From Kaistia algarum (lineage in GTDB: Bacteria; Pseudomonadota; Alphaproteobacteria; Rhizobiales; Kaistiaceae): a DNA stretch of 64,000 nt. Of this stretch, positions 3,496-60,960 are shown in pieces. Where the stretch lies: positions 2,232,001-2,296,000 of the forward strand of contig NZ_JAPKNJ010000001.1 of the NCBI RefSeq assembly GCF_026343945.1. The letters are read 5' to 3'. A program made the position numbers and the translations under genes. The notes under the pieces were generated by a model. It ran no database searches and was not told the origin of the DNA. It worked only from the letters and a program-made list of their open reading frames with translations. Position 1 is the stretch's first letter. Every line of letters begins with the position of its first letter.

Positions 3496-3733
3496 GGCCG
3501 ATCGATCGTCGTCCCATGCGGGCGGCGAATGACGGAAACCGATATCTGGTCGCCCGAAAACGCGTGCGCTCTGCCTCGGCATTGCTGCCGTGCCCAGCCT
3601 GCGGCTCGGATCGATGCCGGAATTGAGCCGGCATAGGGTGCGCTCCGAACGACACGACCCAGTTGGCCTGGTTCCGATCGAGAGGTGAACTCTGAAGCGC
3701 CATTCGTCACCAGAATCAACTAAATCATGTTAT

Positions 3734-3753
3734 AATGATGTACGTACAACACA
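3734..3753. promoter_or_regulatory. Putative GntR operator upstream of the sugar ABC operon
   Basis: The 20-bp near-palindrome is centred on GTAC|GTAC, with left half AATGATGTAC and right half GTACAACACA. It matches the palindrome at 9599-9618 at 15 of 20 positions, and that copy lies in front of the deoC-type gene. It directly precedes a TTGACA hexamer, so a bound protein could act on the promoter. Assignment to the GntR protein encoded at 8738-9469 is inferred from the shared motif and the gene layout. Confidence 0.55.
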
Positions 3754-3782
3754 TTGACAGCTCGTCAGTATATGACTAGCTT
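3754..3782 (+). promoter_or_regulatory. Putative sigma-70 promoter for the sugar ABC operon
   Basis: TTGACA (3754-3759) is followed after 17 bp by TAGCTT (3777-3782). The match at -35 is perfect and at -10 it is weak. It lies 60 bp before the binding-protein start, inside a 346-bp stretch (3496-3841) that holds no supported gene. Confidence 0.45.
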
Positions 3783-3841
3783 CGGCATGTTGGCTGCCTG
3801 GAGGATGGTGGCTCAGCTGATCAGAGTGGGAGGATAAGTCT

Positions 3842-4783: not shown

Positions 4784-4793
4784 TGCTGCCTGG

Positions 4794-4830
4794 GGAGGCG
4801 TGCACCATCGGTGCATGCCTCCTCTTTTTT
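4794..4830 (+). terminator. Intra-operon stem-loop with U-tract (partial terminator)
   Basis: A 13-bp stem (GGAGGCGTGCACC paired with GGTGCATGCCTCC, one G-U pair) has a 3-nt loop and is followed by TCTTTTTT. It has the form of a Rho-independent terminator, yet it lies between the binding-protein gene and its permease gene. It probably attenuates downstream expression. Confidence 0.8.
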
Positions 4831-4853
4831 GAAATCTTCAATCCGAGGGCAGC

Positions 4854-5825
4854 ATGTTTCAACGCCTCATCCGGCGTCCGGAGATCGGACCGCTCATATT
4901 GCTGGTCGCCGAGTTCATCATATTCAGTATTATGAGTCCGGCTTTCCTGTCGCTGGGCAATCTCAGCAACATCATGGCGTTCACGGTCGAGCTCGGGCTG
5001 ATGGCCCTCGCTATGACGCTGCTGATGACGGCGGGCGAATTCGATCTCTCCATTGGATCGGTCTTCGGGTTTTCGGCCGTGCTGATGTGGACCTTGTTCA
5101 ACAGCGCCGGCGTATCGCTGGAAGCCGCCTTCGCGATCACGATGGCCGTCAGCCTCTTCATCGGCTGGTGCAACGGCTACATCACGACGCGGCTCGCGAT
5201 CCCGTCCTTCCTCGTGACGCTGGGCATGCTGCTGGTCGTGCGTGGAACGGCGCTCTACATCACCGACGGATTCCCCCAGCGCACCTGGAGCGGCGGCAAC
5301 AATTGGCTGACCGACGGGCTGGCGGGTTCGTTCTATATCGGCGGTTTCCGCTTCTATTCCTCCTTCGCCATCTTCGCCGTCGTGGCCGTCGTCTCCGGTT
5401 ATGTGCTGAGCTGGACCGCCTTCGGCAACTGGCTCCAGGCCGTCGGCGGCAACCCCAACGCCGCCCATGCGCGCGGCGTGAATGTCGCCCGGACGAAGAT
5501 CGCCCTCTTCATGCTTTCCGCGGCCCTGGCCTCCCTCGCCGGCATCACGAGTTCGATCCGCACCGCAGCGTCGAATCCGAACAGCGGCACCGGCTATGAG
5601 CTCGAGGTCATTGCCATGGTTGTGATCGGCGGCACGGTGCTGACCGGCGGCCGTGGCACGATCGTCGGCACGGTGATCGGCGTGTTTCTGCTGCGCGTCA
5701 TGCGCAACGGCATCGTCTTCGTCGGCGTGCCCGGCCTCGCCTACAACATCTTCATCGGCGCGATTATCCTCGGGATGATGATCCTGCGCGCCATCTTCGC
5801 ACGGCGGAACGGTGGGGGCGCCTGA
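4854..5825 (+). CDS. Sugar ABC transporter permease (RbsC-like)
   Basis: Inner-membrane permease of the BPD_transp_2 family, 323 aa, almost entirely hydrophobic with about eight to ten membrane helices. It carries the family segments MTAGEFDLSIGSVFG near residue 60 and GGTVLTGGRGTIVGTVIG near 260, which contact the ATPase and line the channel. The next gene, an ATPase, starts 2 bp after its stop, indicating coupled translation. It would act as a homodimer with that ATPase. Confidence 0.92.
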   Translation: MFQRLIRRPEIGPLILLVAEFIIFSIMSPAFLSLGNLSNIMAFTVELGLMALAMTLLMTAGEFDLSIGSVFGFSAVLMWTLFNSAGVSLEAAFAITMAVSLFIGWCNGYITTRLAIPSFLVTLGMLLVVRGTALYITDGFPQRTWSGGNNWLTDGLAGSFYIGGFRFYSSFAIFAVVAVVSGYVLSWTAFGNWLQAVGGNPNAAHARGVNVARTKIALFMLSAALASLAGITSSIRTAASNPNSGTGYELEVIAMVVIGGTVLTGGRGTIVGTVIGVFLLRVMRNGIVFVGVPGLAYNIFIGAIILGMMILRAIFARRNGGGA

Positions 5826-5827
5826 GC

Positions 5828-6601
5828 ATGACCGAACAACTCATCCGCATGCGCGGCGTCAACAAGTTCTACGGGGCCGTCCAGGCGCTGCACGACGTCA
5901 ATATCGATGTTGGCAACCGGGAGGTCGTCGGCTTGCTCGGCGACAATGGCGCCGGCAAGTCAACCCTGATCAAGGTGCTCTCCGGCGCGGTACCGATGTC
6001 GTCCGGCGAGATCCATGTGAAGGGGAAGAAGGTCGCCATCCGTTCGACCACTGACGCGATCGCCAGCGGGATCGAGACGATCTATCAGGATTCGGCGCTG
6101 GTGCCGCAGCTTTCCATCGCGCGCAATCTCTTCCTCGGCCGGGAGCCGATCAAGGGCTGGAAGTTCCTGAACCGCATGGACCAGGAGCTGATGGAGCAGG
6201 TCACCAGGAAGCTTCTGAAGCGGGTCGGGATCGAGAAGAACATTCCGCCCTCAACCGCGATCAGCGCACTGTCCGGCGGCGAGCGCCAGTCCGTCGCTAT
6301 CGCCCGCGCCATGTATTTCGAGTCGAACCTCATCATTCTCGATGAGCCGACGAACAATCTCGGCGTCGCCGAGACGCAGGGCGTACTCCGCTTCGTCCGG
6401 GAAATGCGCGATGCCGGCCATTCCTGCATCTTCATCGCCCACAACATCCATCACGTCTTCCAGGTCGTCGACCGGATTATCGTCATGCGCGGCGGCCGTG
6501 TCGTTGCCGACGACATCGATCCGAAGACGACGACGGTCCAGGAGGTCGAGATGATCATCACAGGGCAGGAGCTGCTCGCCGAACGGCCCGCCGCGCACTG
6601 A
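5828..6601 (+). CDS. Sugar ABC transporter ATP-binding protein, single domain
   Basis: ATPase of the ribose-type importer, 257 aa, one nucleotide-binding domain. Walker A is GDNGAGKST near residue 38, the signature is LSGGERQ near 148, and Walker B is LIILDEPT near 169. The usual DEPTAALG is DEPTNNLG here. Unlike RbsA it has no second domain, so the transporter would use two copies. The C-terminal AERPAAH tail is short. Transketolase follows after about 109 bp. Confidence 0.92.
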   Translation: MTEQLIRMRGVNKFYGAVQALHDVNIDVGNREVVGLLGDNGAGKSTLIKVLSGAVPMSSGEIHVKGKKVAIRSTTDAIASGIETIYQDSALVPQLSIARNLFLGREPIKGWKFLNRMDQELMEQVTRKLLKRVGIEKNIPPSTAISALSGGERQSVAIARAMYFESNLIILDEPTNNLGVAETQGVLRFVREMRDAGHSCIFIAHNIHHVFQVVDRIIVMRGGRVVADDIDPKTTTVQEVEMIITGQELLAERPAAH

Positions 6602-46169: not shown

Positions 46170-46284
46170 CATTTTATTTGCGCACGTCTATTTGTTTGAC
46201 AAGATGGGTGCAAGCTGGCAGCCCTTTCGTAGACCGATTTGCCGGGCGGCGCAGCCCGGATCTACCTGCGAAAGACTGAGACGC

Positions 46285-47328
46285 ATGACGAAGACGAACA
46301 TCCGGACGATGGAAGAGTTCGCGGCCGCCGTCGGCCTGTCGCGGCCGACCGTATCGAAATACTTCCAAAATCCGAACTCGGTCCGCGTCAAGGTTCGCGA
46401 ACGGATCGAGGTCGGGCTGACGGAGACCGGATTTCGGCCGAACCTCTTCGCCGTCAATCTGAACCGGCGCCGCACCAAGATCATCGGCCTGATCTTTCCG
46501 AATTCGCTGGACCCCTTCTATACGGGCCTGCGCCGGCGCATCGAGGCGGAAGCGACGCAGGCGGGCTACATGCCGTTCGTCTTTTCCTCTGACGGCAAGG
46601 CCGAACTGGAGGCTGAGGCGATCGAGACGCTGACCTCGCTGAACGTCGCCGGCATCATCATGGCGCCTGTCGGCGGCAATGCGAAGCACCGCGCCAAGGT
46701 CAAGGCGCTCGCCCGGAGCAACCCGATCGTCTTCATCGATGCGCCCTTCGATGATGAGCAGCCCTTCGTTGGCACCAACAATGCACAAAGCATGTCGCTC
46801 ATTACCGATTACCTGACGCGGCTTGGCGACCGGCCCTGCTATTTCGACATGCCCTGGGTGAATAGCAACGCCCATGACCGGCGTAACGCCTATATCGCGA
46901 CAATGGAGCGGCGCGGGCTGGAGCCGATCGTTCTGGAACTCGAGCGCTCCGACAGTTGGGATTTTGAGCGCTATGCCTTTGAGCAGGCGAACCGGATCCT
47001 GCGCAATGGCGGCTTCCCGACGGGAATCGTGGTCTGCGGCAATGATCGTGTCGCCTTCGGTGTTCTGGCGGCCGTTAACCAGGCTGGCCTCAAAATTGGG
47101 CTCGGACCTGATTGCGATCTCCGGATCGCCGGTCACGACAACCAGCCGCTCAGCGAATATACGTGGCCGCCGTTGACCACGGTGTCGCAGAACACGGCGG
47201 AGATGGGACGGCTCGCCATCAATCTCTTGCTTTCCAAACTGGATCCGGGCCGCGTCTTCGACGATCCGCGCCTGTCGGGAGACCAGGTCCTCGTCAACGC
47301 CGAACTCGTGCTGCGCGCCTCGGCTTGA
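46285..47328 (+). CDS. LacI-family transcriptional regulator
   Basis: Regulator of 347 aa from the ATG at 46285; a longer frame from 46192 adds 31 residues without features. The N-terminal helix-turn-helix is TMEEFAAAVGLSRPTVSKYFQN with hinge VRERIEVGLTETGFRPNLFA. The C-terminal periplasmic-binding-like domain binds an effector (IIGLIFPNSLDPFYTGL, VVCGNDRVAFGVL, AGHDNQPLSEYTWPPLTTV). Divergent from the kinase/GatZ unit and convergent with the transporter operon; probably represses both. Confidence 0.92.
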   Translation: MTKTNIRTMEEFAAAVGLSRPTVSKYFQNPNSVRVKVRERIEVGLTETGFRPNLFAVNLNRRRTKIIGLIFPNSLDPFYTGLRRRIEAEATQAGYMPFVFSSDGKAELEAEAIETLTSLNVAGIIMAPVGGNAKHRAKVKALARSNPIVFIDAPFDDEQPFVGTNNAQSMSLITDYLTRLGDRPCYFDMPWVNSNAHDRRNAYIATMERRGLEPIVLELERSDSWDFERYAFEQANRILRNGGFPTGIVVCGNDRVAFGVLAAVNQAGLKIGLGPDCDLRIAGHDNQPLSEYTWPPLTTVSQNTAEMGRLAINLLLSKLDPGRVFDDPRLSGDQVLVNAELVLRASA

Positions 47329-47359: not shown

Positions 47360-48115
47360 TCAGCCGCCGACCATGAGCTTGACGACCTCATCATGCGTCG
47401 TCTCGGAGATCTTGCGCTCGCCGGCCATGACGCCGCGCCGCAGCACGACGATGCGGTCGGAGACGGCAAAGATATCCTGCAGATTGTGCGAGATGAAAAT
47501 CACGCCGCGACCCTGCGCCTTCAACTGATGGATGAGCGAGATGACCTTGCGCTGTTCGGGAACGCCGAGCGCCGCCGTCGGCTCGTCCATGATCAGGATC
47601 TGCGCGTTCCAGTAGACAGCCCGGCCGATCGCCACCGCCTGACGCTGGCCGCCGGAGAAATTGCTCACCGGCGCATCCATGCGGCTGACATGGAAGTCGA
47701 GCAGCGCCATGGTCTTGCGGGCAGCGTCCGCCATCTTCTTGCGGTCGATCACGGGCAGGAACCCAAAGCGCTTGGTCATCGGCTCGCGGCCGAGGAAGAT
47801 GTTGGCTCCGATCGTCAGATTGTCGGCGAGCGCAAGGTCCTGGTAGATCGTCTCGATCCCTTGGTCGCGCGCCTCCTGCGGCGTGGCGAAGCTCACCGGC
47901 TGGCCCTTGAGGCGGATTTCGCCGGAGCTCGGACGGTAGACGCCCGAGATTGCCTTAATGAGCGTCGTCTTACCGGCGCCATTGTCGCCGGCAAGGGCCA
48001 CCACCTCGCCGGGATGAACCGTCATCGACAGGTCACTCAGGGCGCGGACGGCGCCGAAATGCTTGGAGAGATTGATGACCTCGAGCAGAGGCCCGGCATG
48101 AGGAACGTTATTCAT
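47360..48115 (-). CDS. Sugar ABC transporter ATP-binding protein, single domain
   Basis: ATPase of 251 aa from the ATG at 48115. Walker A is GDNGAGKTT, the signature is FSGGQRQAVAIGR near 145, and Walker B is ILIMDEPTAALG near 165. One nucleotide-binding domain, like the protein at 5828-6601. Its start overlaps the end of the permease gene by 8 bp. It serves the transporter of the tagatose-type island. Confidence 0.92.
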   Translation of the reverse strand: MNNVPHAGPLLEVINLSKHFGAVRALSDLSMTVHPGEVVALAGDNGAGKTTLIKAISGVYRPSSGEIRLKGQPVSFATPQEARDQGIETIYQDLALADNLTIGANIFLGREPMTKRFGFLPVIDRKKMADAARKTMALLDFHVSRMDAPVSNFSGGQRQAVAIGRAVYWNAQILIMDEPTAALGVPEQRKVISLIHQLKAQGRGVIFISHNLQDIFAVSDRIVVLRRGVMAGERKISETTHDEVVKLMVGG

Positions 48116-49226
48116 CCTGGCGACCCCCGCTGAACCGGCGCTGCGCCTGGTCGATGAGAACAGATATGATGATGACGACGCCGACGCTGATGAACTGCCA
48201 GAACGGCTCGACATTGACGAAGACGAGGCCGTACTGGATCACGGCGATGACGAGTGCACCGGCGACGGTGCCAAGGATGGTGCCCGAGCCGCCGAACAGG
48301 CTGGCACCGCCGATCACGACCGCGGCCACGCTGTCGAGCAGCAGCGGCTCGCCGGCCTGTGCGGCTCCGGCGCTGAAGCGGGCAGCGTAGAGTACGCCGC
48401 CGACGCCGGCGCAGACGGCCGAGAGAATATAGAGGCGCAGCAGATGCGACTTGATGTCGATGCCGGCACGCCGCGCCGCCTGGACATTGGCGCCGATCGC
48501 ATAATTGTGCTGGCCGAATTTCGTCTGGCTCAGCAGGTAATGCATGATCAGCACGAAGATCGCGGCGACGATGACGATGTAGGGAATCGTGAAGAAGCGG
48601 CCATTGCCGATCGTCGCGAAGAAGGAATTGTTGACGGGAACCGTCGTCCCACCGGCCAGCAGGAAAGCGACGCCGCGCGCGACGCCGAACATGCCGAGCG
48701 TGCCGATAAAGGGCGGAACGCGCAGCCGCGAGATCAGGAGGCCGTTGATGACGCCCGGTATCGCCGCGATAGCCACGGCCACGAGAAATCCGAACAGCAC
48801 CGCCATGGGCAGGCCCATGACCGGATTGGCGAAGTTGATGGCATGGGACGCCACCACGGCCGCAAGACCCATGATGAAGCCGAGCGACAGATCGATGCCG
48901 CCGGAAATGATGACGAAGGTCTGCCCGGTCGCCAACAGCAATGGCGCCACGGCGAAGATCGCGATCGACTGCAGATTGAAGGGGTTGAGTACGAAGGTAC
49001 CGCCGAAATCGAGGCGGGCCCACATTTCGAAGATGATGATCAGCGCGGCCAGGAAGAGCCAGGCCCGGAGGTCGGCCACGCGCTGGAGTATGGTCTTGGC
49101 GCGGTCGGCGTGATCGGCCTGGGGCGCGACGTGGCCGGGCCCGGCACCATGGCCATGCTCCGCGGCATGCCCCTTCGGGCTGGCATGTCCGGCCGCGGCC
49201 GGCACATTCGGTTCGGAAATTGTCAT
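48108..49226 (-). CDS. Sugar ABC transporter permease with histidine-rich N-terminus
   Basis: Permease of 372 aa (RbsC-like). A 45-residue cytoplasmic extension precedes the first helix and carries six histidines (His14, 20, 24, 26, 32, 39) among Gly, Ala and Pro; the two other RbsC-like permeases in the window lack it. The membrane core has SGGIDLSLGFIMGL near 125 and GGASLFGGSGTILGTVAG near 300. It acts with the ATPase downstream and the binding protein encoded upstream. Confidence 0.92.
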   Translation of the reverse strand: MTISEPNVPAAAGHASPKGHAAEHGHGAGPGHVAPQADHADRAKTILQRVADLRAWLFLAALIIIFEMWARLDFGGTFVLNPFNLQSIAIFAVAPLLLATGQTFVIISGGIDLSLGFIMGLAAVVASHAINFANPVMGLPMAVLFGFLVAVAIAAIPGVINGLLISRLRVPPFIGTLGMFGVARGVAFLLAGGTTVPVNNSFFATIGNGRFFTIPYIVIVAAIFVLIMHYLLSQTKFGQHNYAIGANVQAARRAGIDIKSHLLRLYILSAVCAGVGGVLYAARFSAGAAQAGEPLLLDSVAAVVIGGASLFGGSGTILGTVAGALVIAVIQYGLVFVNVEPFWQFISVGVVIIISVLIDQAQRRFSGGRQDE

Positions 49227-49302
49227 GAGTTCACCCGGTCAGCGCGGGACGGCGCACTTTATTCGGCCTGAGGCGGCAGGGACGGCGACAGGTCGCAAAG
49301 GA

Positions 49303-49327
49303 CCTCCCCCGGAACGTCCGGGGGAGG
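49303..49327 (-). terminator. Hairpin between binding-protein and permease genes
   Basis: CCTCCCCCGG-AACGT-CCGGGGGAGG forms a perfect 10-bp stem with a 5-nt loop, 18 nt after the binding-protein stop. It is placed like the attenuator at 4794-4830 but without a long U-tract; probably protects the upstream mRNA. Confidence 0.65.
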
Positions 49328-49344
49328 ATATAGTCACTCCGAGA

Positions 49345-50343
49345 TCAGTTGGAGTAGATGTACTTGGCGACGTTCGGATCGGCGACGTTCTTCTTGTCGA
49401 TCACGGTGAAGCCGGTGCCGATCGAGACCGGGATGGACTGTCCGGTCAGGTGGGCATAGGCGGAAACAACGCCGTAATAGCCGATCTCGGCGGGATGCTG
49501 CGCAATCGCCACGTCGACGAGACCGCTGTTGATGTTGTCGACGATCGACGTCGGCGCATCAAAGGCAACGACCCGGATGGTGCCGGCCTGGCCGGCCTGC
49601 TGGACGCCGGTACCGGCGCCGAGAGCCGAGAACAGATTGGCGCCGAACACGCCCTTCAGGTCCGCATTGCGGGCGAATACCGCCTGCAGCTGGGAAGCCG
49701 CCTTGTTGGCGTCGTTCTCGTTGAACTGCGTCTCCAGCACGGTGACCTTCGGGAAGCTCTCCTTCATCTCCGCCTTGAAGCCTTCTTCGCGCTGGTCGGT
49801 GGTCGAGATGCCCGGCTTGACGTTCGAGACGTAAACCTTGCCCTCGCCGCCGATCGCGGTGGCCAGCGCGCGGGCTGCCATGCGGCCGCCGAGCACGTTG
49901 TCCGAGGCGATGTAGGAGTACGGGAAGTCGGCATCGCCGGCGCCGGTCTGGTACTTGCCGGTGCCGATGAAGGTGTCGACGGTGATCACCGGGATGCCGG
50001 CATCATTCGCCTTGCGCAGCGGCTCGACAAGCTGGGTCGTATCCGTCGGCGCGATCAGGATCGCGTCGGGCTTGCGGGCGATGACCGCGTCGAGGACGGG
50101 GACCTGCAGAACCGGATTGAAATCCGGGGCGCCCTGGAAGACCAGCTCGACGCCGAGGGCATCGGCGGCTGCCTGCGCGCCCTTGCGCATCGTGATGTAG
50201 AACGCATCCGTGGTCAGGCCAGGGATCAGGGCGATGGTGTACTTCTTGGCCTGGGCGTGGGCGACACCGCCCATTGCCGGCAGACCGATCGACGCGGCCA
50301 AGGCGGCTGCGACCGCCATCTTGATAACCGAACGACGCTCCAT
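49345..50343 (-). CDS. Sugar ABC transporter substrate-binding protein
   Basis: Periplasmic binding protein of the Peripla_BP_4 class, 332 aa from the ATG at 50343. The signal begins MERRSVIKMAVAAALAASIGLPAMGGVAHA; its RR pair sits at the start, so Sec export remains likely. Mature features are YTIALIPGLTTDAFYITM, KPDAILIAPTDTTQLVEPL, IPVITVDTFIG and ASDNVLGGRMAARAL. First gene of the transporter unit between a SorC-type and a LacI-type regulator; the ligand is presumably the hexose or hexitol degraded by the island. Confidence 0.92.
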   Translation of the reverse strand: MERRSVIKMAVAAALAASIGLPAMGGVAHAQAKKYTIALIPGLTTDAFYITMRKGAQAAADALGVELVFQGAPDFNPVLQVPVLDAVIARKPDAILIAPTDTTQLVEPLRKANDAGIPVITVDTFIGTGKYQTGAGDADFPYSYIASDNVLGGRMAARALATAIGGEGKVYVSNVKPGISTTDQREEGFKAEMKESFPKVTVLETQFNENDANKAASQLQAVFARNADLKGVFGANLFSALGAGTGVQQAGQAGTIRVVAFDAPTSIVDNINSGLVDVAIAQHPAEIGYYGVVSAYAHLTGQSIPVSIGTGFTVIDKKNVADPNVAKYIYSN

Positions 50344-50732
50344 GGTTTCCTCCCTCATGAGCTGTTCAAAGTTTCTAACCGGCCCGATCAACGTGGCCAG
50401 TTCCCATATCACCGCGACAGACGGGCCGTCTCGTCAAGCGAAATTTGTTGCTGAAGCGATTTTCACACCTCAGAACGCCTCCTGCGCTCTGGCGACGGCC
50501 GGAATGACGCCGGCCCCGAAAACAACGATTGCGCGCCCTCCTCCGAGGACCGATCGCGGGGCGAGCGCCCTGTTTGCCGGTTCCCGGCCGGCGCTCGGGG
50601 CAAACTAGAGGGCAGCCGGCCCCGCCTGTCAATTGCGTTTGTGCGCGACAAGCCCTATTTTTACGTGGCGAAAGATACGGTCCTGAGATCACGCCGCAAT
50701 GCAGCATTTCTGCTGCTTTGCGCGCGGCACAC
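50344..50732. other. 389-bp control region upstream of the transporter operon
   Basis: No supported gene. It lies between the SorC-type gene end and the binding-protein start, both leftward. It contains the LacI-like element at 50659-50674 and presumably the transporter promoter. No other repeat or hairpin stands out. Confidence 0.5.
50659..50674. promoter_or_regulatory. LacI-like operator candidate before the transporter operon
   Basis: TTTTACGTGGCGAAAG matches the complement of the 46154-46169 element (CTTTACGTGCATAAAG) at 12 of 16 positions, with the TTTACGTG core exact. It is 316 bp before the binding-protein start, so support is modest. Confidence 0.35.
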
Positions 50733-51683
50733 TCAACGCGCCAACCGGGCGAGAATCGCCGCTGCGGTCGTGCTGTCGGTAACCAGGGCGCTCAGGAGTG
50801 CGGCCCGCGCCGCGCCAATGATCGCCTCGGCCTTGGCCTCGCCGACAGCCACGCCGATGACGAGCGGTACCCGCCGGAGTTGGTCGACCGAGACGGCGAT
50901 CATCCGGCCCTCCCCCTCCCAGGACAGGATGTTGCCGTCCGCATCGAAATAGTGGCGAATCACATCGCCGGCCGCGCCGACCAGCCGGCGTTCGCTCGGC
51001 GTTGCCGCGCTCTCCTCGGTCACGGTCGGCAGATGCGGCAGCCCGACACCCACGACCGCGACGTCGATCCGGTCCCACAGCGCGACCGTTTCGCGAATCG
51101 TCGGATCAACGAGAAACGCTGCCCGCGTCTCCGCCGAGGGCAGGTAGGGCGCATGGATGAAGCGAGGCTCGCCGCCCAGATGCTTGGCCGCGAGGCGTAC
51201 GAATTCGTTGACCTGGAAATGCGCCGCCTGCTGCTGCATGCCGCCGGTCGCCGGAACGACCAGGACGCCCGGAATCGAGGGAAGGCCGACCTGGATGACC
51301 TCGCGAATGGCGCGGCCCCAGCCAACCGCCAGCACCCCGCCCGCCGCAAGGCCGGACTGGCGCAGCAAGCCGCCCAGCGGGTCCGCCAGCGCCGCGGCGG
51401 CGCTCGCCGGAGGCACGTCGACGACGGCCGCGCGCTGCAGGCGGAGCGCCTTGGCCAGCCGCTCCGCCAGATCCTCCGGCTCCTCGAAATCGCGCACCTC
51501 GATCCGCACGATCCCCTCCGCCCGGGCTTGCCGCAACATGCGCGAGATCGTGGCCGTCGAGACGCCGATCCGCTTGGCGATGTCGACCTGGCTCATGTCG
51601 CTCTCGTAGTGCAGCTTGGCGACCGTGTGCAGCATCGTCCGCGCTGAACGGGTCTCCGGAGGCGTGGACTGGGACAGTTGCAA
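50733..51683 (-). CDS. SorC-family sugar-responsive transcriptional regulator
   Basis: Regulator of 316 aa. The N-terminal helix-turn-helix is MSQVDIAKRIGVSTATISRMLRQA near 30-53. The C-terminal sugar-phosphate-binding domain of the SorC/DeoR type runs from about 65 to 315, with GWGRAIREVI near 120 and VGVGLP near 215. It is divergent from the LacD-like aldolase and kinase-fusion genes, so a phosphorylated intermediate of that route is a likely effector. Direct repeats TGAGGCAAT in the intergenic region are candidate sites. Confidence 0.9.
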   Translation of the reverse strand: MQLSQSTPPETRSARTMLHTVAKLHYESDMSQVDIAKRIGVSTATISRMLRQARAEGIVRIEVRDFEEPEDLAERLAKALRLQRAAVVDVPPASAAAALADPLGGLLRQSGLAAGGVLAVGWGRAIREVIQVGLPSIPGVLVVPATGGMQQQAAHFQVNEFVRLAAKHLGGEPRFIHAPYLPSAETRAAFLVDPTIRETVALWDRIDVAVVGVGLPHLPTVTEESAATPSERRLVGAAGDVIRHYFDADGNILSWEGEGRMIAVSVDQLRRVPLVIGVAVGEAKAEAIIGAARAALLSALVTDSTTAAAILARLAR

Positions 51684-51815: not shown

Positions 51816-52727
51816 ATGGCTCGCATGACAACCGCCGAACTTCGCGGCTACCAACAGATCTGCGGCGCCGACGGCGCCATGATGGTGATTGCCTGCGACC
51901 AGCGCGGCGGCATGCGCACGCTGCTGGCGAGCGATCCGGCCGAGCAGGCGAAGATCAGCAATGAAGTGCTGGGCGACACCAAGGCGGATATTGCCCGCTA
52001 TCTCGCGATCGAGGCCTCCTGCGTGCTGGTCGATCCGATCTGCGCCGTGCCGGCGATCGTGAACAACGGCACACTGCATCGCAATACGGCGCTCCTGATC
52101 GGCCTCGACGCTTCGGGCTGGGACGTTTCGCCGGAAGGCTATCGCCTCTCCAAGCTGGTCGATGGCATCACCGCCCGCAAGGTGCGCGAGCTCGGCGGAA
52201 CGGGCGGCAAGATCATGGTCTATCTGCGCTCCGACACGCCTGCCGCCAACACGCACAACATCGAGATCCTGAAACAGGTCATCGCCGATTTCGCGGCCGA
52301 GGACCTGCTGATCGTCGTGGAATTCCTGACCTATGCGCTCGAAGGCGAGACGCCGGAGGCCTATGCGGCCAAGATCCCCGAATTGATCCAGGGTGGCTCG
52401 CAGATCTGCCTCGATCTCGGCTCCAAGGTTCTCAAGCTGCCCTATCCCGGCTCGCCCGAATCCTGCGCCGCCGTCACCCGCCTCGCCGGAGACGTGCCGT
52501 GGGCGGTGCTGTCGGCCGGCGTCGGCCATGACACCTTCCTGAAGCAGGTCGAGATCGCCATGGCCAACGGCGCCTCGGGCGTGATCGCCGGCCGCTCGCT
52601 CTGGAAGGACTGCATTTCGCTCGACCGCAGAGTGACACGCGAACGCCTGACCATGATCGCCGTGCCGCGCCTGCGCGAAATCCAGGCCGTTATTGCGCGC
52701 CACCGCTCCGTCGCTGCAGCCGCCTGA
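51816..52727 (+). CDS. LacD/YihT-like class I aldolase
   Basis: TIM-barrel aldolase of 303 aa in the family of tagatose-1,6-bisphosphate aldolase (LacD) and sulfofructose-phosphate aldolase (YihT). Matching features are IACDQRGGMR near 25-34, VYLRSDTP near 138, the likely Schiff-base Lys207 in KVLKLPYPG, PWAVLSAGV near 228 and GASGVIAGRSLW near 252. It probably cleaves a ketose bisphosphate or phosphate to dihydroxyacetone phosphate and an aldehyde. The kinase-fusion gene starts 2 bp after its stop. LacD versus YihT-like specificity cannot be settled by eye. Confidence 0.82.
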   Translation: MARMTTAELRGYQQICGADGAMMVIACDQRGGMRTLLASDPAEQAKISNEVLGDTKADIARYLAIEASCVLVDPICAVPAIVNNGTLHRNTALLIGLDASGWDVSPEGYRLSKLVDGITARKVRELGGTGGKIMVYLRSDTPAANTHNIEILKQVIADFAAEDLLIVVEFLTYALEGETPEAYAAKIPELIQGGSQICLDLGSKVLKLPYPGSPESCAAVTRLAGDVPWAVLSAGVGHDTFLKQVEIAMANGASGVIAGRSLWKDCISLDRRVTRERLTMIAVPRLREIQAVIARHRSVAAAA

Positions 52728-52729
52728 TC

Positions 52730-54220
52730 ATGGCGGGCGGGAGGACGGCTGTCGGCGTCGATATCGGCGGCACCCATATCCGTGCCGCCCGCGTTTCGGA
52801 AAGCGGGGAGATTCTCGCTCGCACCCGGATCCGAAGCGATCATGATCCCGAGCGCGCCATGGCTGCCATCGCGGCTGCCATCGAAGCGGTCGATGCGCCG
52901 GATGCCGAAGCGATCGGCATCGGCGTCCCCGGCCGTGTCGATGCGGCCACAGGCGAGGTGCTCTCGGGCGGCTATGTCGACCTCTCGGGCCTTCCCGTGC
53001 GCAGCCGGATCGAAGCAGCTTTCGGCCGGTCGGTCACGATCGACAATGACTGCGCGATGGCTCTCGTCGCCGAAGCGGCGATCGGTGCGGCGCGCGGTTT
53101 GAAGAATGCCGTGATGCTGACCATTGGTACCGGCATCGGTGGCGCCGTCATGGACGGGGGCCACCTGGTTCATGGCCGCCGCACGGCCGGCCAACTGGGC
53201 CATATCGTCGTCGAGACGGAGGGACTTCGCTGCGTCTGCGGCAAGCGCGGCTGCGTCGAGACGACCAGTTCGGGCACGGCGCTCGGCCGGCTCATCGCCG
53301 AGGCCGGCTTGCCCGGAGGCACCACGGCGGCCGATCTGCGCGCCGCTGCCGCAAATGGCGATGCCGCCGCCACGAATATTCTGCAACGCTGGGCGGTCCC
53401 GCTCCGCGCGGCGATCGACAGTCTGGTCGCCGCACTCGATCCGGAGGTCGTCCTTCTCGGCGGCGGGCTCGGCTCGGAAGCCGCATCCGCTGTCGCGGCG
53501 CTGCCGAACCAGACTTCCTGGTACGAATCGCACATTGCCGCCGCCGCGCTTGGCGATGACGCCGGCGTAATCGGCGGCGCTCTGGCCGCGCTCGAAAGGA
53601 CGAGCGCTGCCACGGCCAAGCCGCCCGCATCGCCTGCTATAACGGCCTTGCGACCGACCGCGGCCGTCGGCCGTCGTGCCATTCTCGTCAATGGCGTCCC
53701 GGCCAGCGGCAAGAGCGGCGTCGCCCGGGCGCTGGCGGCCCATACGGGCTGGCCGATCCTCGGGCTCGACACCGTCAAGAATCCTTTCCTCGAACTGATC
53801 GAGAATGTCGACCGGCCCTTCAACCGCGTGCTGGGGCGGGCGAGCTACAAGGCAATTTTCTCTATCATCGGCGAGGCACCGGCAGGTTCGACCTTCATCG
53901 TCGATGCCTGGTTCGGCTTCCAGCCTCCCGAACTGCTGGAAGAGCACCTCGCCATGGCCAAGGTGGCGTCGACCGCCGAGATCTGGTGCCATGCGCCGCC
54001 GGATATCGTTGCCGCGCGCTATGCGGCCCGCGCGACCACGCGTCTGCCCGGCCATCCGGGCCCCGAATATGCCGAGGAACTGAGGGCCCTCGCCGCCCGC
54101 GCCAAGCCGATCGGCCGTGGCCCGCTGCTGGACGTCGAGACGACCGCGCCGGTGGATGTCGACCGGCTGGTCCGGTGGCTGATGTCAGACGCCCTGTCGC
54201 TGCCGGACCCGGCCCGCTGA
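52730..54220 (+). CDS. Fusion protein: ROK sugar kinase plus C-terminal P-loop kinase
   Basis: Protein of 496 aa with two kinase-type parts. Residues 1 to about 300 form a complete ROK kinase: GVDIGGTHIRAARV at 9, the catalytic DNDCAMALVAEA near 104, and the zinc motif CVCGKRGCVE near 167. A linker (about 295-318) leads to a P-loop domain with Walker A GVPASGKSGVARAL near 322 and GLDTVKNPF, resembling small AAA_33/gluconokinase-like kinases, to the end. No frameshift or internal start signal is seen. Coupled to the LacD-like aldolase gene, it might phosphorylate a sugar at two positions. Fusion is certain in the frame; function is inferred. Confidence 0.85.
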   Translation: MAGGRTAVGVDIGGTHIRAARVSESGEILARTRIRSDHDPERAMAAIAAAIEAVDAPDAEAIGIGVPGRVDAATGEVLSGGYVDLSGLPVRSRIEAAFGRSVTIDNDCAMALVAEAAIGAARGLKNAVMLTIGTGIGGAVMDGGHLVHGRRTAGQLGHIVVETEGLRCVCGKRGCVETTSSGTALGRLIAEAGLPGGTTAADLRAAAANGDAAATNILQRWAVPLRAAIDSLVAALDPEVVLLGGGLGSEAASAVAALPNQTSWYESHIAAAALGDDAGVIGGALAALERTSAATAKPPASPAITALRPTAAVGRRAILVNGVPASGKSGVARALAAHTGWPILGLDTVKNPFLELIENVDRPFNRVLGRASYKAIFSIIGEAPAGSTFIVDAWFGFQPPELLEEHLAMAKVASTAEIWCHAPPDIVAARYAARATTRLPGHPGPEYAEELRALAARAKPIGRGPLLDVETTAPVDVDRLVRWLMSDALSLPDPAR

Positions 54221-54264: not shown

Positions 54265-55029
54265 TCACCGGGTCGTATAGCCGCCGTCGACGACCAGCAC
54301 TTCACCGGTCACGTATCGGGACGCCTCCGAGCACAGATAGACGGCGGCCGCGCCGATGTCCCTCGGCGTGCCGACCATCGGCAGCGGCGTCATCGCCTTC
54401 CAGATGGGCGACCATTCTGGATTGGCAAAGCCGCTGGCCGTCATATCGGTGTCGATATAGCCCGGAGCGATGGCGTTGGCTCGAATGCCTTCGCTGGCGT
54501 AGTCACTGGCAAGGCTTTTCGTCAGCATATGCACCGCCGCCTTCGAGGCGTTGTAGGCCGCCTGGGGCTGCGGAATGTTGGAGACGAAGCCAGAGATCGA
54601 GCCAATATTGAGGATGACGCCGCTCTTCTGCAGGCGCATCGGTCCGAGGGCGGCCTGGCAGGTTTTGAAGACGGCATCGACGTTGACGTCCATAAGACGC
54701 CGATAATCGGCTTCGGCAAAACTGTGGGTGTCGCCGTGATAGGCTATACCGGCATTGTTGACGAGAATGTCCAACCTGCCATGCAGGGCCGTGGCATCGG
54801 CGACAAGCTGGGCCGGCGCGACCGGATCTTCCATGTCGGCGGCGATATACGACACCTTGTGTCCGGCCGCTTGGAGCGATGCCATCACGTCCGGCTTGGG
54901 CATCCTTGAGGAGAGGATGACGTGCGCGCCTACTTCGGCAAGAGCCTGCGCTACGCCAAGCCCGATGCCACGGGTAGCGCCGGTAACCAGCGCCACCTTG
55001 CCCGCGAGGGAAAACAGATCGAGGATCAT
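54265..55029 (-). CDS. SDR-family oxidoreductase
   Basis: Short-chain dehydrogenase of 254 aa. The coenzyme motif TGATRGIGLGVAQAL is near residue 16, the structural NNAGIAY near 90, and the active-site Ser (NIGSISGF), Tyr and Lys (YNASK) near 140-160. C-terminal YVTGEVLVVDGGYTTR is typical of gluconate 5-dehydrogenase/polyol dehydrogenase-like members. It starts 11 bp after the GMC gene stop, so the two oxidoreductases form one unit. Substrate unknown. Confidence 0.9.
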   Translation of the reverse strand: MILDLFSLAGKVALVTGATRGIGLGVAQALAEVGAHVILSSRMPKPDVMASLQAAGHKVSYIAADMEDPVAPAQLVADATALHGRLDILVNNAGIAYHGDTHSFAEADYRRLMDVNVDAVFKTCQAALGPMRLQKSGVILNIGSISGFVSNIPQPQAAYNASKAAVHMLTKSLASDYASEGIRANAIAPGYIDTDMTASGFANPEWSPIWKAMTPLPMVGTPRDIGAAAVYLCSEASRYVTGEVLVVDGGYTTR

Positions 55030-55040
55030 GGTCTTATCTC

Positions 55041-56681
55041 TCAGTTTGTCGCCATGGATTGTTCGACCCCGAGTATGAAATCGACGCAGCGATCTCCCAG
55101 CATCATGGCCGGCGCGGTCGTGTTGCCGGCATTGATGTTGGGCACGGCAGAGAGATCCGAGACACGCAGATTGTCGATGCCACGCACCCTGAGCCGGGCG
55201 TCCAGGACCGCCATCGGGTCTCCATCAGCCCCCATGCGTGCCGTGCTGGCCGGGTGGTAATTGGTCTTGACGAAACGGCGACAATGTTCCGCCATGGCCT
55301 CGTCACTCAGATCCGGACCTGCCGGCGCAATCACCTTTTCGACGCGTTTGCCCAGCGGTCCCGACAGCAGAACATCGCGGAAGAAGCGCTGCCCCGCGAC
55401 CATGGTTGCCATATCGTCCGCGTGCTGGAGCAGGTGGGGAGAGACCAGCGGTGGGGCGGCCGGATCGGCGGAACGAAGCTGGACATATCCGCGTGACTTC
55501 GGCTTGGCGACGACCGTGGTGATGGTGACGCCGTAGGTATCGTCAAACACCTTCAGGAGGTCGCGATCGAGATAGACGATCGGAACGCAGAAGGCCTGAA
55601 TGGACGGCGGGGCGTCGCGATCGATGGGGTTGATGAAGGCGCCGGCCTCGAATCCCGTCGACAGGATTCGGCCGCTGCCGAACAGCTTGAAGTGCAAGCC
55701 ATTCATCAGCATCCGCCAGCCGACGCCCTGTCGATAATAGCCATAAGGGCCGTTGGCGACCGAGATGACCGGAACCTCCGGATGATCGATCAGATTTTGC
55801 CCGACGCCCGGCAGGTCTACCAAGGTCTGGATCCCGTGCGCCTCCAGATGCGCCGCCGGTCCGATGCCCGACAACATTAGCAATTTGGGCGTAACGAGAG
55901 CGCCCGCGCTGAGGACAATATCGCCCTTCGAGAATACCGTGTGCTCCTGTCGCTTCTCGTCGGTGTAGGTCACGCTGACGGCCCGGCCGTTTTCAACGTT
56001 GATGCGCGACACCGCGGCGCGCAAACGGACCGTCAGACGCTTATCGTTCTTGAGCGGTTCGATATAGGCGTAGGCGGCGCTCGACCGCTTTCCCGCCCGA
56101 TTCATGAATTGATAGAAGCCGACTCCGCGCTGCGCCGTCCCATTGAAATCCGGATTGAACGGTTCGCCCATTTCCTGGACGCTCTGCACGAACCACCGCG
56201 ACACGTCGTCGACATATCCGGGATCGGAGACCAGCAAAGGCCCGTCGCTGCCGTGGAACTCGTTGCTCAGCCGGTTGTTGCCTTCGATGCGGCGAAAATG
56301 CTTGAGGACGGTCGACCACCCCCAGGACGCACCCTCATTGTTGCCGCGAAGGATCTCTTCCCATTCATCATAGTCAGAGGGGCGGCCGCGCATATAGACC
56401 TGCGCGTTCACCGACGTGCCGCCGCCGAGAACGTTGCCCTGGGGGATATCATGGACCCGGTCATGCAGGTGCGGCTGCGGCACCGTGTGATGGTAGGTCA
56501 TATATTTGGAGCCATTGATCATCTTGAAGATGCCGGGCGGCATGTCGAGCAATGGATGGTGGTGCGAATATCCCGCCTCGAGCAGCAGGACCCGTCGATT
56601 GCCGTCCGTCACAAGCCGGGAGGCCGCAACGCATCCGGACGCCCCGCCCCCGATGACGATATGATCGAATGTCTCTGACAA
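55041..56681 (-). CDS. GMC-family FAD oxidoreductase (choline-dehydrogenase-like)
   Basis: Flavoprotein of 546 aa, the normal family length. The FAD motif is FDHIVIGGGASGCVAASRL at the N-terminus. GGGTSVNAQVYMRGRPSDYDEWE near 85 and SAGALVTPKLLMLSGIGP near 260 are the two GMC signatures. The catalytic histidine is in NYHPASTARMG near 475, and the C-terminal NINAGNTTAPAMMLGDRCVDFIL is intact. Oxidises an alcohol or polyol group; substrate unknown. Upstream an imperfect hairpin (56700-56726) is visible. Confidence 0.92.
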   Translation of the reverse strand: MSETFDHIVIGGGASGCVAASRLVTDGNRRVLLLEAGYSHHHPLLDMPPGIFKMINGSKYMTYHHTVPQPHLHDRVHDIPQGNVLGGGTSVNAQVYMRGRPSDYDEWEEILRGNNEGASWGWSTVLKHFRRIEGNNRLSNEFHGSDGPLLVSDPGYVDDVSRWFVQSVQEMGEPFNPDFNGTAQRGVGFYQFMNRAGKRSSAAYAYIEPLKNDKRLTVRLRAAVSRINVENGRAVSVTYTDEKRQEHTVFSKGDIVLSAGALVTPKLLMLSGIGPAAHLEAHGIQTLVDLPGVGQNLIDHPEVPVISVANGPYGYYRQGVGWRMLMNGLHFKLFGSGRILSTGFEAGAFINPIDRDAPPSIQAFCVPIVYLDRDLLKVFDDTYGVTITTVVAKPKSRGYVQLRSADPAAPPLVSPHLLQHADDMATMVAGQRFFRDVLLSGPLGKRVEKVIAPAGPDLSDEAMAEHCRRFVKTNYHPASTARMGADGDPMAVLDARLRVRGIDNLRVSDLSAVPNINAGNTTAPAMMLGDRCVDFILGVEQSMATN

Positions 56682-56981
56682 CGCACGCTCCCTTGGAATA
56701 AGCCTTCTATTTCATTGGAAGGGCTTCCGGAATCGCGTTGGCCCTTCGAAGCGCTCCCATACGGTCGTCACCTCGCCGCCGCCCGTTGGATCGCTGCTCC
56801 GATACTTGGTCGGACGGCGGGACGCGCCTGTCAATACGCCGGGCGCGCCTACATGGGGCACGATTCATGGCATTTTGTTCATCGGAGCGTGCATTGAAGT
56901 CCGCATCGCCGGTCGTCCGCGGGCATCTCCCCATGCCGAGCCCCGCGGGCGTCGGCAAAGCATGCCGTTCCCCCCACGCTA
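56682..56981. other. 300-bp gap between the GMC gene and the ABC permease gene
   Basis: No supported gene. Next to the GMC start an imperfect inverted repeat pairs AAGCCTTC (56700-56707) with GAAGGGCTT (56718-56726), with one bulged base. It could be a leader hairpin or operator. The rest shows nothing distinctive. Confidence 0.4.
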
Positions 56982-57983
56982 TCAGCTGAAGTAGCGCACT
57001 CGGATCGCGTCGATGGCGACCGCGATGAAGATCATGAAGCCGCCGATGATCCCGACATAGAAGGAAGGCACGGAGACGATGGCGAGGCCGACCTGGATCA
57101 CGGTGAGCAGCAATACGCCGCCCAAAACGCCGATGACGTTGCCCCTGCCGCCGAACACGCTGACGCCGCCGATGATCGGCGCGGCGATGGCATAGAGCAG
57201 GTAGCTCGAGCCCTGGTTCGAGGTGATCGCCATCTGCCAGGAGGCCAGCAGAAACCCGCCCACGCCGGCCAGGAACCCGGCCAGCGTATAGGTCATGATC
57301 TTGACGCTGTCGACGCGGATGCCGGCGGAGTTCGAGGCGACCGGGTTGCCGCCGACGGCATAGATCCGGCGGCCGAACACGGTCCGGCCGAGCAGGATGC
57401 CGACGCCGGCGAGGGCGACGATCAAGATGAAGGGCATGATCGGCCAGCCGCCGATCGTGGCTTGACCGATCCAGATATAGCCGTCCGAAAGATTGGTGAT
57501 CGTGCGGCCCTGCGTCAGGGCCAGCAGCGCGCCCTGCAGGATGATCATCATCGAGAGGGTCTGGATCAACGACACCATCTTCAGCTTGGTGATGCAGAGA
57601 CCGTTGAAGAAGCCGATCAGCGTCGCCACCGCCACGCCGAGCATGACGCCCGGAAACCAGGGCAGGCCCCAGTCGGAATAAGCCAAGGCGCCAATCGCCG
57701 ATGAGAAGCCGAGATTGGCGGGTAGCGACAGGTCGATCTCCGCGACCAACAGCGGCAGCGCGACGGCGAGCCCGAGAATCCCGAGCACGGTCGCCTGCAC
57801 CATGATGTTCTGCAGGTTGAAGACCGTAAAGAAGAACTGGTTGAACAGCCCGAAGATCGCGACAAGCGCGATCAGCCAGATCCAGACGACATTGTGCAGT
57901 ATCCAGCCAAGCGCGGACATCCCGCCACCTCGCGCGGTGGAGGAGGCATTGCTCTTGGCGGCGACGGTCATCGTGCGGCTCAT
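56982..57983 (-). CDS. Sugar ABC transporter permease (RbsC-like)
   Basis: Permease of 333 aa with a short polar N-terminus and about eight to ten membrane helices. LLVAEIDLSLPANLGFSS near 80 and GGVSVFGGRGNVIGVLGGVLL near 270 are the family elements. Last gene of the third ribose-type transporter, in the order binding protein, double-domain ATPase, permease. It starts 34 bp after the ATPase stop. Confidence 0.92.
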   Translation of the reverse strand: MSRTMTVAAKSNASSTARGGGMSALGWILHNVVWIWLIALVAIFGLFNQFFFTVFNLQNIMVQATVLGILGLAVALPLLVAEIDLSLPANLGFSSAIGALAYSDWGLPWFPGVMLGVAVATLIGFFNGLCITKLKMVSLIQTLSMMIILQGALLALTQGRTITNLSDGYIWIGQATIGGWPIMPFILIVALAGVGILLGRTVFGRRIYAVGGNPVASNSAGIRVDSVKIMTYTLAGFLAGVGGFLLASWQMAITSNQGSSYLLYAIAAPIIGGVSVFGGRGNVIGVLGGVLLLTVIQVGLAIVSVPSFYVGIIGGFMIFIAVAIDAIRVRYFS

Positions 57984-58017
57984 CTCTGCTCGCTATCCTC
58001 CCTGCTTCCGCGCCCCA

Positions 58018-59544
<1,527 letters not shown>

Positions 59545-59563
59545 CTCCTATCCGACAACGATC

Positions 59564-59584
59564 GGCCGCGGACACGCCGCGGCC
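59564..59584 (-). terminator. Hairpin between binding-protein and ATPase genes
   Basis: GGCCGCGG-ACACG-CCGCGGCC is a perfect 8-bp stem with a 5-nt loop, placed like the hairpins after the binding-protein genes at 4794-4830 and 49303-49327. No U-tract; likely an mRNA-stabilising or weakly attenuating element. Confidence 0.55.
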
Positions 59585-59636
59585 AAGCTTCAGGCGGCGC
59601 CGCACCTCATGGGTACGACGCCGCTTTCCTGTCCTG

Positions 59637-60719
59637 CTAGGTATAGGGGATCTTCCAGACGTTTTCCGCAATCGCGCCCCAATGGCGGGGATCGGCGGCG
59701 TTGCTGGCGTCGATGATGAAGGGCGGGATGATCAGCGTCGCGCCCGTCTTGCCTTGGACGATATCGCCCTTTTCCCAGAAATACTTGCTGTTGGTATAGG
59801 GGCCGATCGGCACGGCCTCGCCCTTCATCGCGTATTTGCCGAGCATCTCCACGGCGATCTCGCCATAGGCAATCGGGTCCTGCGAGACGCAGCTATCCAT
59901 ATAGCCTTCCTGGATCCACTTCAGCGCGACCGGCTCGCCATCGATATTGACGAAGATGACATGGCCTTCCTCGCCGACCTTCTTCCAGCGATCCTTCTGC
60001 TGCAGGGCCGTAACGATGCCGCGCGAGGGCGAGTCGGACGGAGCATGCACGGCGTCGAGATCCGGGAACTCCGAAAGCGTCGAGAGCGTCACGGCCAGCA
60101 TCTGGTCGAGCGCGCCTTCGGTCGGCCGCGCGAGATATTTGATTTCCGGATATTTGGCGAACTCGGCGTCCATGCCTTCCTTGCGCAGGCGCCAGGCGAC
60201 GCTCTGCAGCGCGCCGAAGCAGTTCAGCACGGTACCCTTCGGGCTGCCATGCTTCGCGATCAGCCGCTTGATGATCTCCTGCGCGGCCATCACGCCGCCC
60301 AGCTGGTTGTCGAAGCTCACGGTGATCGCCACATCGCCGCCATCGGCCGGCGTATCGATGATGCCGACGGGGATCTTCTTCTGGTTGTAGCGGCGGATGG
60401 CGCTGACGATGGCCTGGCTATCGATCGGATCGCTGATGATCGCGGAGGGATTGCTGAGCATCAGGCTCTGCCACTGCTCAAGCTGGCGCGTATTGTCGAA
60501 ATTGGCGTTCGTCGCCTGGAATTCCCAGGTGTTCGCCAGCACCGCCCGCTTCACGGCTTCTTCCTGGATGACGAAGAAGTAGTAGTCGAGGCTCTTGTTG
60601 CTATAGGGGACGAAGACACGATCCGCCGCGAAGGCGGAGCCCCCCAGCATCGTACCCACGCCGATCGCCGCTCCCGCCTTCATCAGGCTGCGGCGGCTCA
60701 GATTGTTTATGTCCGTCAC
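59637..60719 (-). CDS. Sugar ABC transporter substrate-binding protein with Tat-type signal
   Basis: Periplasmic binding protein of 360 aa. The GTG at 60719 is the start because GGGAGGATCAA precedes it; a longer frame to 60929 has no ribosome site. The N-terminus has NLSRRSLMKAG followed by a hydrophobic stretch ending SAFA, a twin-arginine (Tat) pattern uncommon for this class. Mature features are SLDYYFFVIQEEAVKRA, AIISDPIDSQAIVSAIRRYN, IPVGIIDTPADGG and FDNQLGGVMAAQ. The RpiR-type operator candidate at 60769-60783 precedes it. Confidence 0.9.
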   Translation of the reverse strand: MTDINNLSRRSLMKAGAAIGVGTMLGGSAFAADRVFVPYSNKSLDYYFFVIQEEAVKRAVLANTWEFQATNANFDNTRQLEQWQSLMLSNPSAIISDPIDSQAIVSAIRRYNQKKIPVGIIDTPADGGDVAITVSFDNQLGGVMAAQEIIKRLIAKHGSPKGTVLNCFGALQSVAWRLRKEGMDAEFAKYPEIKYLARPTEGALDQMLAVTLSTLSEFPDLDAVHAPSDSPSRGIVTALQQKDRWKKVGEEGHVIFVNIDGEPVALKWIQEGYMDSCVSQDPIAYGEIAVEMLGKYAMKGEAVPIGPYTNSKYFWEKGDIVQGKTGATLIIPPFIIDASNAADPRHWGAIAENVWKIPYT

Positions 60720-60768
60720 TTGATCCTCCCATTCCCATTCGGCCTCCTGTCCCTGCCGAATAGAGTTA

Positions 60769-60783
60769 TCTAGTTTCACTACA
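60769..60783. promoter_or_regulatory. Putative RpiR-family operator before the binding-protein gene
   Basis: TCTAGT-TTC-ACTACA is a 15-bp near-palindrome (one mismatched pair). On the minus strand it reads TGTAGTGAAACTAGA, close to the known HexR/RpiR-type form TGTAGT-N3-ACTACA. It lies 50 bp before the binding-protein start, in the promoter zone. A partial copy (GTTTCACTACATT) recurs at 60969-60981. Confidence 0.55.
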
Positions 60784-60874
60784 TTGGCGTGGGTGTCAAT
60801 GGCATCCCGTCGAGAAGGCAACAAAGTCTCGGCATTGGTCATCAGGGCTTGTAAGATGCCTAAGTCGTTCGAAT

Positions 60875-60893
60875 TACGTGGATTTTCCACGTA
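60875..60893. promoter_or_regulatory. Inverted repeat between rpiA and the transporter operon
   Basis: TACGTGGA-TTT-TCCACGTA is a perfect 8-bp inverted repeat with a 3-bp spacer, midway between the rpiA stop (60961) and the binding-protein start (60719). No U-tract on either strand, so an operator is more likely than a terminator. Binding protein unknown. Confidence 0.5.
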
Positions 60894-60960
60894 GTAGGGC
60901 CGGCGGTGCGCCTGTTGCGCGAGCACCACCGACCGTTCATTCGCAACAGGTAGATTGCGG

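Follow-up and report, generated by a model that had tools for sequence, protein, structure and literature searches.

A ROK–P-loop fusion protein as a probable bifunctional ketose kinase in a sugar import-and-degradation unit of Rhizobiales

The gene at 52730..54220 (+) of the window, a stretch of 64,000 nucleotides from Kaistia algarum, probably encodes a bifunctional ketose kinase within a sugar import-and-degradation unit, in which its ROK half acts first, its P-loop half second and a LacD-type aldolase cleaves the product. Both activities and their order are inferred, as are the sugar, the products and the ligand of the regulator. In this pathway a rare ketose of the D-tagatose or D-manno-heptulose type would enter the cell unmodified, and the ROK half would phosphorylate its terminal hydroxyl (C7 in mannoheptulose, C6 in tagatose). 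The P-loop half would then phosphorylate C1, the job of a phosphofructokinase done on an unrelated fold, and the LacD-type aldolase would cleave the bisphosphate to DHAP and erythrose 4-phosphate (or glyceraldehyde 3-phosphate), while a SorC-type regulator probably senses a phosphorylated intermediate. The fusion, its intact catalytic motifs, the association of the three domains, the link to Avi_5339 and the placement of a phosphofructokinase in one related genome (G505) were computed directly.

Parts of this route are familiar. The tagatose 6-phosphate pathway (LacC and LacD) phosphorylates a ketose 6-phosphate at C1 before LacD-type cleavage; LacC, however, is a PfkB-family kinase rather than a P-loop kinase, and the first phosphate of that pathway comes from other steps, with no ROK fusion. 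A closer precedent is the hypothetical mannoheptulose locus of Rhodobacteriaceae bin08, for which a ROK kinase was proposed to form the 7-phosphate and a second kinase the 1,7-bisphosphate, followed by aldol cleavage (Leyn et al., 2017; PMC5507952). That locus combines an Avi_5339-related ABC importer with a LacD-family aldolase (COG3684), a ROK kinase (COG1940) and a second small kinase (COG0529), and the window contains the same combination of importer, ROK kinase, second kinase and LacD-family aldolase. The passages that set out the 2017 proposal have two kinases; they mention no fusion and present no enzymology and no displacement or co-occurrence evidence. A first-pass annotation of the window had likewise put forward two phosphorylations followed by aldol cleavage, leaving their order and the sugar open. 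The route it described is the best-supported reading, with activities that are inferred, and it is less new than was supposed, having been in print as a hypothesis since 2017 and relying on a fusion that is widespread. The order is now narrowed to ROK first and the sugar to a ketose of the D-tagatose/D-manno-heptulose type, short of proof. What is added here is the exact co-occurrence of the enzymes, the mixture of split and fused states, the fixed ROK glutamine and the phosphofructokinase replacement in one genome.

A literature search limited to open-licence papers found no paper that names the ROK–P-loop fusion and no experiment on it. The analysis gives a likely role to a protein that is called 'ROK family protein' or 'glucokinase' in many rhizobia, with the sugar-contact glutamate replaced in every copy examined. 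We see about an even chance that the P-loop half represents a ketose-phosphate 1-kinase class that is both new and non-homologous, a phosphofructokinase analogue fused, in one or two events, to a ROK ketose kinase, with one polypeptide converting a free ketose, perhaps of seven carbons, into the 1,omega-bisphosphate. If this is true, phosphofructokinase-type chemistry arose on another kinase fold, and a single protein would make it possible to test the 2017 proposal on how bacteria use seven-carbon plant sugars.

The fused gene and its active sites

The frame at 52730-54220 (+) runs without an internal stop and encodes 496 amino acids, which the Pfam profiles and an AlphaFold2 model divide into two kinases. 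The ROK half (residues 1-297; 52730..53620, +) matches PF00480 over residues 8-287 (E 6.3e-53, 180.6 bits against a cut-off of 22.9) and carries DxGGT, the catalytic D107, QxGH in place of ExGH and the zinc motif CVCGKRGCVE. The P-loop half (residues 312-496; 53663..54217, +) features the Walker A motif GVPASGKS, D347, K350, R362, R366, the lid arginines R430, R434 and R438, and H442. Over residues 318-443 it matches AAA_33 (PF13671; E 3.9e-7, 30.9 bits against a cut-off of 27), a profile score above the cut-off that is accompanied by the Walker A lysine K328; Pfam gave no match to PF00365 (phosphofructokinase) in this half, which is not a member of that family. The model shows two confident domains (mean pLDDT 92.5) joined by a disordered linker (298-310). 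The single uninterrupted frame described by the first-pass annotation is thus borne out by the open reading frame and both profiles, and the motifs it quoted (GVDIGGTH, CVCGKRGCVE and GVPASGKSG) can all be found in the translation.

Both domains are present, by precomputed Pfam assignment, in 113 of the 120 homologues listed (out of 1874 passing). The remaining seven have PF00480 only, and one of them is the window's own shorter reading, P0003. The motifs of both kinases are invariant across an alignment of the window protein with 119 listed homologues, and together these observations exclude a chance joining of two domains.

Conservation of individual residues was counted over 121 loci (85 fused and 36 split, giving 108 distinct rows). 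In the ROK half, D11, G13, G14, T15 and D107 are each kept in 120 of the 121, and the zinc cysteines C168, C170 and C175, together with H158 and E177, in all of them. Set against a published list of ROK motifs (PMC5458393), the half has DxGxT with the catalytic aspartate as well as the zinc motif CxCGxxGCx(E/D), but fails at ExGH, which reads QxGH in 121/121 loci. The description of this half as a complete ROK kinase therefore stands as regards the profile, DxGGT, D107 and the zinc motif, and falls as regards the ExGH glutamate. The neighbouring N106 is kept in 115/121 and is lost in 5 of the 36 split rows and 1 of the 85 fused ones. The same Glu-to-Gln exchange in P. shigelloides NagK (E154Q) is described as giving a GlcNAc Km of >50 mM and a reduced rate; E154 and N104 of that enzyme are said to coordinate the 3'-OH, with D105 as the base acting on the 6'-OH (PMC10031466). 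The ExGH motif is not absolute for ROK kinases, because E. coli NanK also departs from it, with His153 at the glutamate position (PMC5458393). By profile and fold, the N-terminal half is filed as ROK, with an apparently altered specificity. The QxGH position may be a specificity site, and the fusion proteins are probably not ordinary glucokinases.

Conservation is equally strict in the P-loop half. G322, P324, G327, K328, D347, K350, R362, R366, G369 and W394 are kept in 121/121 loci, as are C420, R430, R434, R438 and H442, and a few of the 121 rows vary at positions 329, 365, 392, 395, 397, 417 and 441. A C-terminal domain without catalytic residues would have spoken against a second kinase; in the alignments all of these residues are intact, and the interpretation survives this check. 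No characterised relative of the P-loop half was found among the PDB matches listed for the fusion protein, a list of 50 that was filled by ROK proteins and in which 2rhm is the sole row for this half, so that other P-loop kinases may exist. The entry 2rhm is the putative kinase Caur_3907 of Chloroflexus aurantiacus, a separate protein of 193 residues, unlike the fused half of the window's protein.

The surrounding unit and its probable sugar

The kinase gene follows a gene for a LacD-family class I aldolase of 303 amino acids (51816..52727, +; PF01791, 5.7e-16), whose frame stops at TGA and is followed by TC and the kinase ATG, confirming the 2-bp spacing after a LacD/YihT-like aldolase gene that had been noted earlier. 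The DeoC/LacD family PF01791 is the only level at which the aldolase can be classified, as it scores 58 bits against a cut-off of 432.2 for the LacD equivalog TIGR01232 and 152.5 bits against 184 for NF009498. It aligns over nearly its full length with structures of the sulfofructosephosphate (SFP) aldolase YihT (7ag1, 1to3, 7ag7/7ne2), which are among its nearest solved relatives. Among 91 aldolases, at least 98% retain K207, S233, G235, A258, G259 and R260. These residues, with the motifs S233-x-G235 and A258-G259-R260, align with YihT, whose corresponding residues make the Schiff base and bind the C1 phosphate. The substrate of YihT bears a sulfonate where the second phosphate would be, and the operon partners of YihT are absent from the window locus.

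Divergent from the aldolase gene lies a gene for a SorC/DeoR-type regulator (50733..51683, -; PF04198, 4e-46), and beyond it stand the genes of an ABC importer: a sugar-binding protein (49345..50412, -; PF13407, 4.7e-57), a permease (48108..49226, -; PF02653, 2.3e-36) and an ATPase (47360..48214, -; PF00005, 1.8e-34). The unit thus comprises the importer at 47360-50412 (-), the regulator at 50733-51683 (-) and the aldolase and double kinase at 51816-54220 (+). A scan of species genomes gave 209 confirmed relatives, of which the best 80 were kept for locus comparison. The aldolase (≥60% identity) stands beside the fusion in 80/80 of these best loci, an affirmative answer to the question of whether such fusions co-occur with LacD-family aldolases. 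The SorC-type regulator (≥45% identity) is found in 79/80 (missing in L094) and each importer gene (≥60% identity) in 78/80 (missing on the short contigs L048 and L070). Across the 80 best loci the unit has neither a conserved isomerase nor a conserved dehydrogenase, as would suit a ketose as the imported sugar.

The identity of the importer narrows this further. The window's binding protein is ~80% identical to 5dkv, a protein of Agrobacterium vitis titled Avis_5339 (target EFI-511225), and the locus of A. vitis NCPPB 3554, which has a fused gene (L033), encodes a protein that by eye is almost identical to 5dkv. The window's binding protein was modelled with moderate confidence (pLDDT 70.3), and the link to 5dkv is based on sequence. 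The ligand in 5dkv is presumably alpha-D-tagatopyranose. D-tagatose has the same configuration at C3-C5 as D-manno-heptulose, so a LacD-type aldolase could serve both sugars. An exocyclic terminal hydroxyl is available to a ROK kinase only in the pyranose form of mannoheptulose, a point slightly in favour of mannoheptulose. Binding of mannoheptulose by Avi_5339 has also been reported, as an unpublished finding by Almo and Gerlt that Leyn et al. cite (2017; PMC5507952). The imported sugar would thus be a ketose of the D-tagatose/D-manno-heptulose type, a choice that is narrowed and not proved. The same aldolase–ROK–P-loop set also occurs with binding proteins 39-40% identical to the window's (L190 of G623 and L192, the second unit of G678), and G678 carries two units, which hints that more than one sugar may be handled by these enzymes.

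The genes that flank the unit are far less constant. A convergent run at 54265-60929 (-) encodes, from 5' to 3', a binding protein, an ABC ATPase, a permease, a GMC oxidoreductase and an SDR, and resembles a second operon, for importing and oxidising a sugar or polyol. It was considered as part of the pathway and rejected, since it is not conserved in the 80 loci: the window's SDR (≥50% identity) is found in 1/80, the GMC oxidoreductase in 0/80 and the second importer (≥50%) in 0/80. Some SDR lies ≤800 bp from the unit in 10/80 loci, and a dehydrogenase may be an occasional extra. On the other side, a LacI-type regulator gene (46192-47328, +) adjoins the importer ATPase gene; a copy (≥60% identity) is found in 5/80 loci, and some genomes may thus pair the unit with two regulators. 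The commonest flanking cluster beyond the six genes reaches 18/80 loci in a crude clustering of open reading frames that includes spurious ones. A gene for a HAD-family hydrolase adjoins the unit in 11/80 loci (for instance L093 5253-5906, -; PF00702, 5.6e-16), and our guess is that it is a sugar phosphatase acting as a safety valve.

Distribution of fused and split forms

The pairing of the two kinases, which the first-pass annotation had implied to be rare, is not: at least 113 homologues have both domains and 209 relatives are confirmed. The best 80 come mostly from Mesorhizobium and Rhizobiaceae, with Aureimonas and some Rhodobacterales among them, and the fusion is spread widely through both Rhizobiales and Rhodobacterales. 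The source names of the homologues listed are mostly 'ROK family protein' or 'glucokinase', with a few cases of 'transcriptional regulator' and 'hypothetical protein'. The objection that this might be a common annotated architecture with another known role is accordingly half right, as the architecture is common, but its names are generic and no characterised role was found in the literature. A full single frame is seen in 77/80 of the best loci; the Kaistia granuli locus (L110) is truly split, and two draft assemblies (L070 and L106) have a broken frame. Matches in PLSDB lie on 24 plasmids, 21 of them from Rhizobium.

Fused and split forms occur side by side within the genus of the window, where 7/14 genomes have close matches to both halves; the window's copy is fused and the other six are split into adjacent genes. 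A profile of the P-loop half (E≤1e-25) found 33 matches in 32 of 397 genomes of the order. Aldolase, ROK kinase and P-loop kinase stand side by side in 30/30 of the loci read from this search (the window's included, G520 left out), with 5 fused and 25 split, and the same arrangement is present in G487 and in the second copy of G678. An aldolase search of 397 genomes of the order gave any match in 74, and matches of ≥62% identity in exactly the same 32 genomes as the P-loop kinase (33 matches; the next best is 33% identical). The two 397-genome samples agree in the genomes listed for them. The 32 genomes fall in 16 genera, and G678 has two copies of both proteins. Across the class, the P-loop search (E≤1e-20) found 2/385 genomes, namely the window's own and one distant match without ROK or aldolase in its 3.5-kb locus, and the aldolase search of 372 genomes found none of >34% identity except the window's own. 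These data show that the P-loop kinase, the ROK kinase and the aldolase are tightly associated.

A tree of the joined ROK and P-loop segments (108 distinct rows, 80 fused and 28 split; quick method with SH-aLRT support only) needs two changes between the fused and split states, both forced by starred branches. Either two fusions took place, or one fusion was followed by a later separation; gain and loss are indistinguishable on this tree. The window's copy groups with that of Prosthecomicrobium pneumaticum and then with fused copies from other families, apart from the split copies of its own genus. This placement suggests lateral transfer of the window's copy, a suggestion that is not firm in a tree with several long rows.

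Exchanged enzyme sets and alternative readings

Binding proteins of the window's clade (E≤1e-90) are found in 28/383 genomes of the order, and four of these (G018, G478, G505 and G630) have the clade without a P-loop match (E≤1e-25). In G505 (L184), the importer genes are directly followed by genes for a phosphofructokinase, a ROK kinase and a LacD-type aldolase (3331-6213), in a run of overlapping or nearly touching genes that is probably one operon. The phosphofructokinase matches PF00365 (3.6e-70), and its nearest solved relative is the 6-phosphofructokinase 1zxx (6.3e-55). The importer is closely related to that of its genus-mate G584 (L188), with 88% identity for the binding protein, 71% for the permease and 76% for the ATPase, and G584 has the usual aldolase–ROK–P-loop set. 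A closely related importer thus goes with two enzyme sets whose members match one to one: ROK with ROK, LacD type with LacD type and phosphofructokinase with P-loop kinase. The phosphofructokinase (PfkA, PF00365) is unrelated to the P-loop half in fold and sequence, and the reaction that we propose for both is the C1 phosphorylation of a ketose phosphate, as suggested by its position at the place of the P-loop kinase. This replacement is the best evidence in this study for the P-loop half as a C1 kinase, and suggests it from a single genome in which the whole set is exchanged. The sugar of G505 could differ, because its ROK kinase and LacD-type aldolase are different proteins (each 31% identical to the window's). 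A plasmid search at 1e-40 for the phosphofructokinase of this G505 variant gave no match.

A third enzyme solution near the window's binding-protein clade is seen in G478 and G630 (L226 and L227), where a 65% identical binding protein is encoded near DhaK/DhaL and a DhnA-type aldolase. This set fits the C1 phosphorylation of a ketose and the phosphorylation of dihydroxyacetone equally. A ROK protein with an N-terminal extension is encoded beside the importer in both loci, with the DhnA-type aldolase and DhaK/DhaL on the other strand.

These exchanges bear directly on other readings of the double kinase. For LacD-family relatives such as YihT, a ketose 1-phosphate is a substrate even though it carries no second phosphate. 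With YihT among the nearest solved relatives of the window's aldolase, and with DhaK/DhaL, of the dihydroxyacetone kinase family, near a related importer in G478 and G630, the aldolase might cleave a monophosphorylated ketose, leaving the P-loop half to act on the product that carries no phosphate (dihydroxyacetone, glyceraldehyde or erythrose). We consider this unlikely, if worth keeping in mind, as the corresponding kinase of G505 is a phosphofructokinase, from a family that acts on ketose phosphates. ROK kinases, moreover, act on a terminal hydroxyl, as NagK does (PMC10031466), and cleavage without a C1 phosphate would then require an aldolase that does not use DHAP, yet the phosphate-type motif is kept.

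A reversal of the two steps, in which the P-loop half makes a ketose 1-phosphate and the ROK half then phosphorylates its terminal hydroxyl, would agree with the glutamine at the sugar-contact position in 121/121 loci, which points to a substrate other than an ordinary free hexose. It is nonetheless improbable: free sugars are the substrates of the ROK kinases of solved structure that appear by name among the nearest relatives, and the G505 phosphofructokinase, standing for the P-loop half, belongs to a family needing a ketose phosphate. Least probable is a P-loop half without a catalytic part in the pathway, serving regulation or using an unrelated nucleotide or small molecule as its substrate. 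Its modest Pfam score (E 3.9e-7) and the lack of a characterised relative among the PDB matches listed would agree with such a role, whereas the Walker A lysine, D347, K350, R362, R366, R430, R434, R438 and H442 are kept in 121/121 loci, and in each of the 25 split loci read the P-loop kinase is a gene of its own, next to those for ROK and the aldolase.

The association of the enzyme set with this importer has exceptions, among them the 39-40% identical binding proteins of L190 and L192. In G018 (L225 8292-10855), the neighbours of a 66% identical binding protein are an FGGY carbohydrate kinase and an RpiR-type regulator, and the 15 kb read there contain no aldolase gene. The best binding protein of G458, G525, G553, G599, G017 and G022 is encoded on a different contig or at a distance of ~780 kb. 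Eight genomes with the P-loop kinase have no binding-protein row in the 383-genome search; two of them, G772 and G783, do have the importer clade and may lie outside this smaller sample. The tie of the enzyme set to its importer is therefore looser than the tie among the enzymes themselves.
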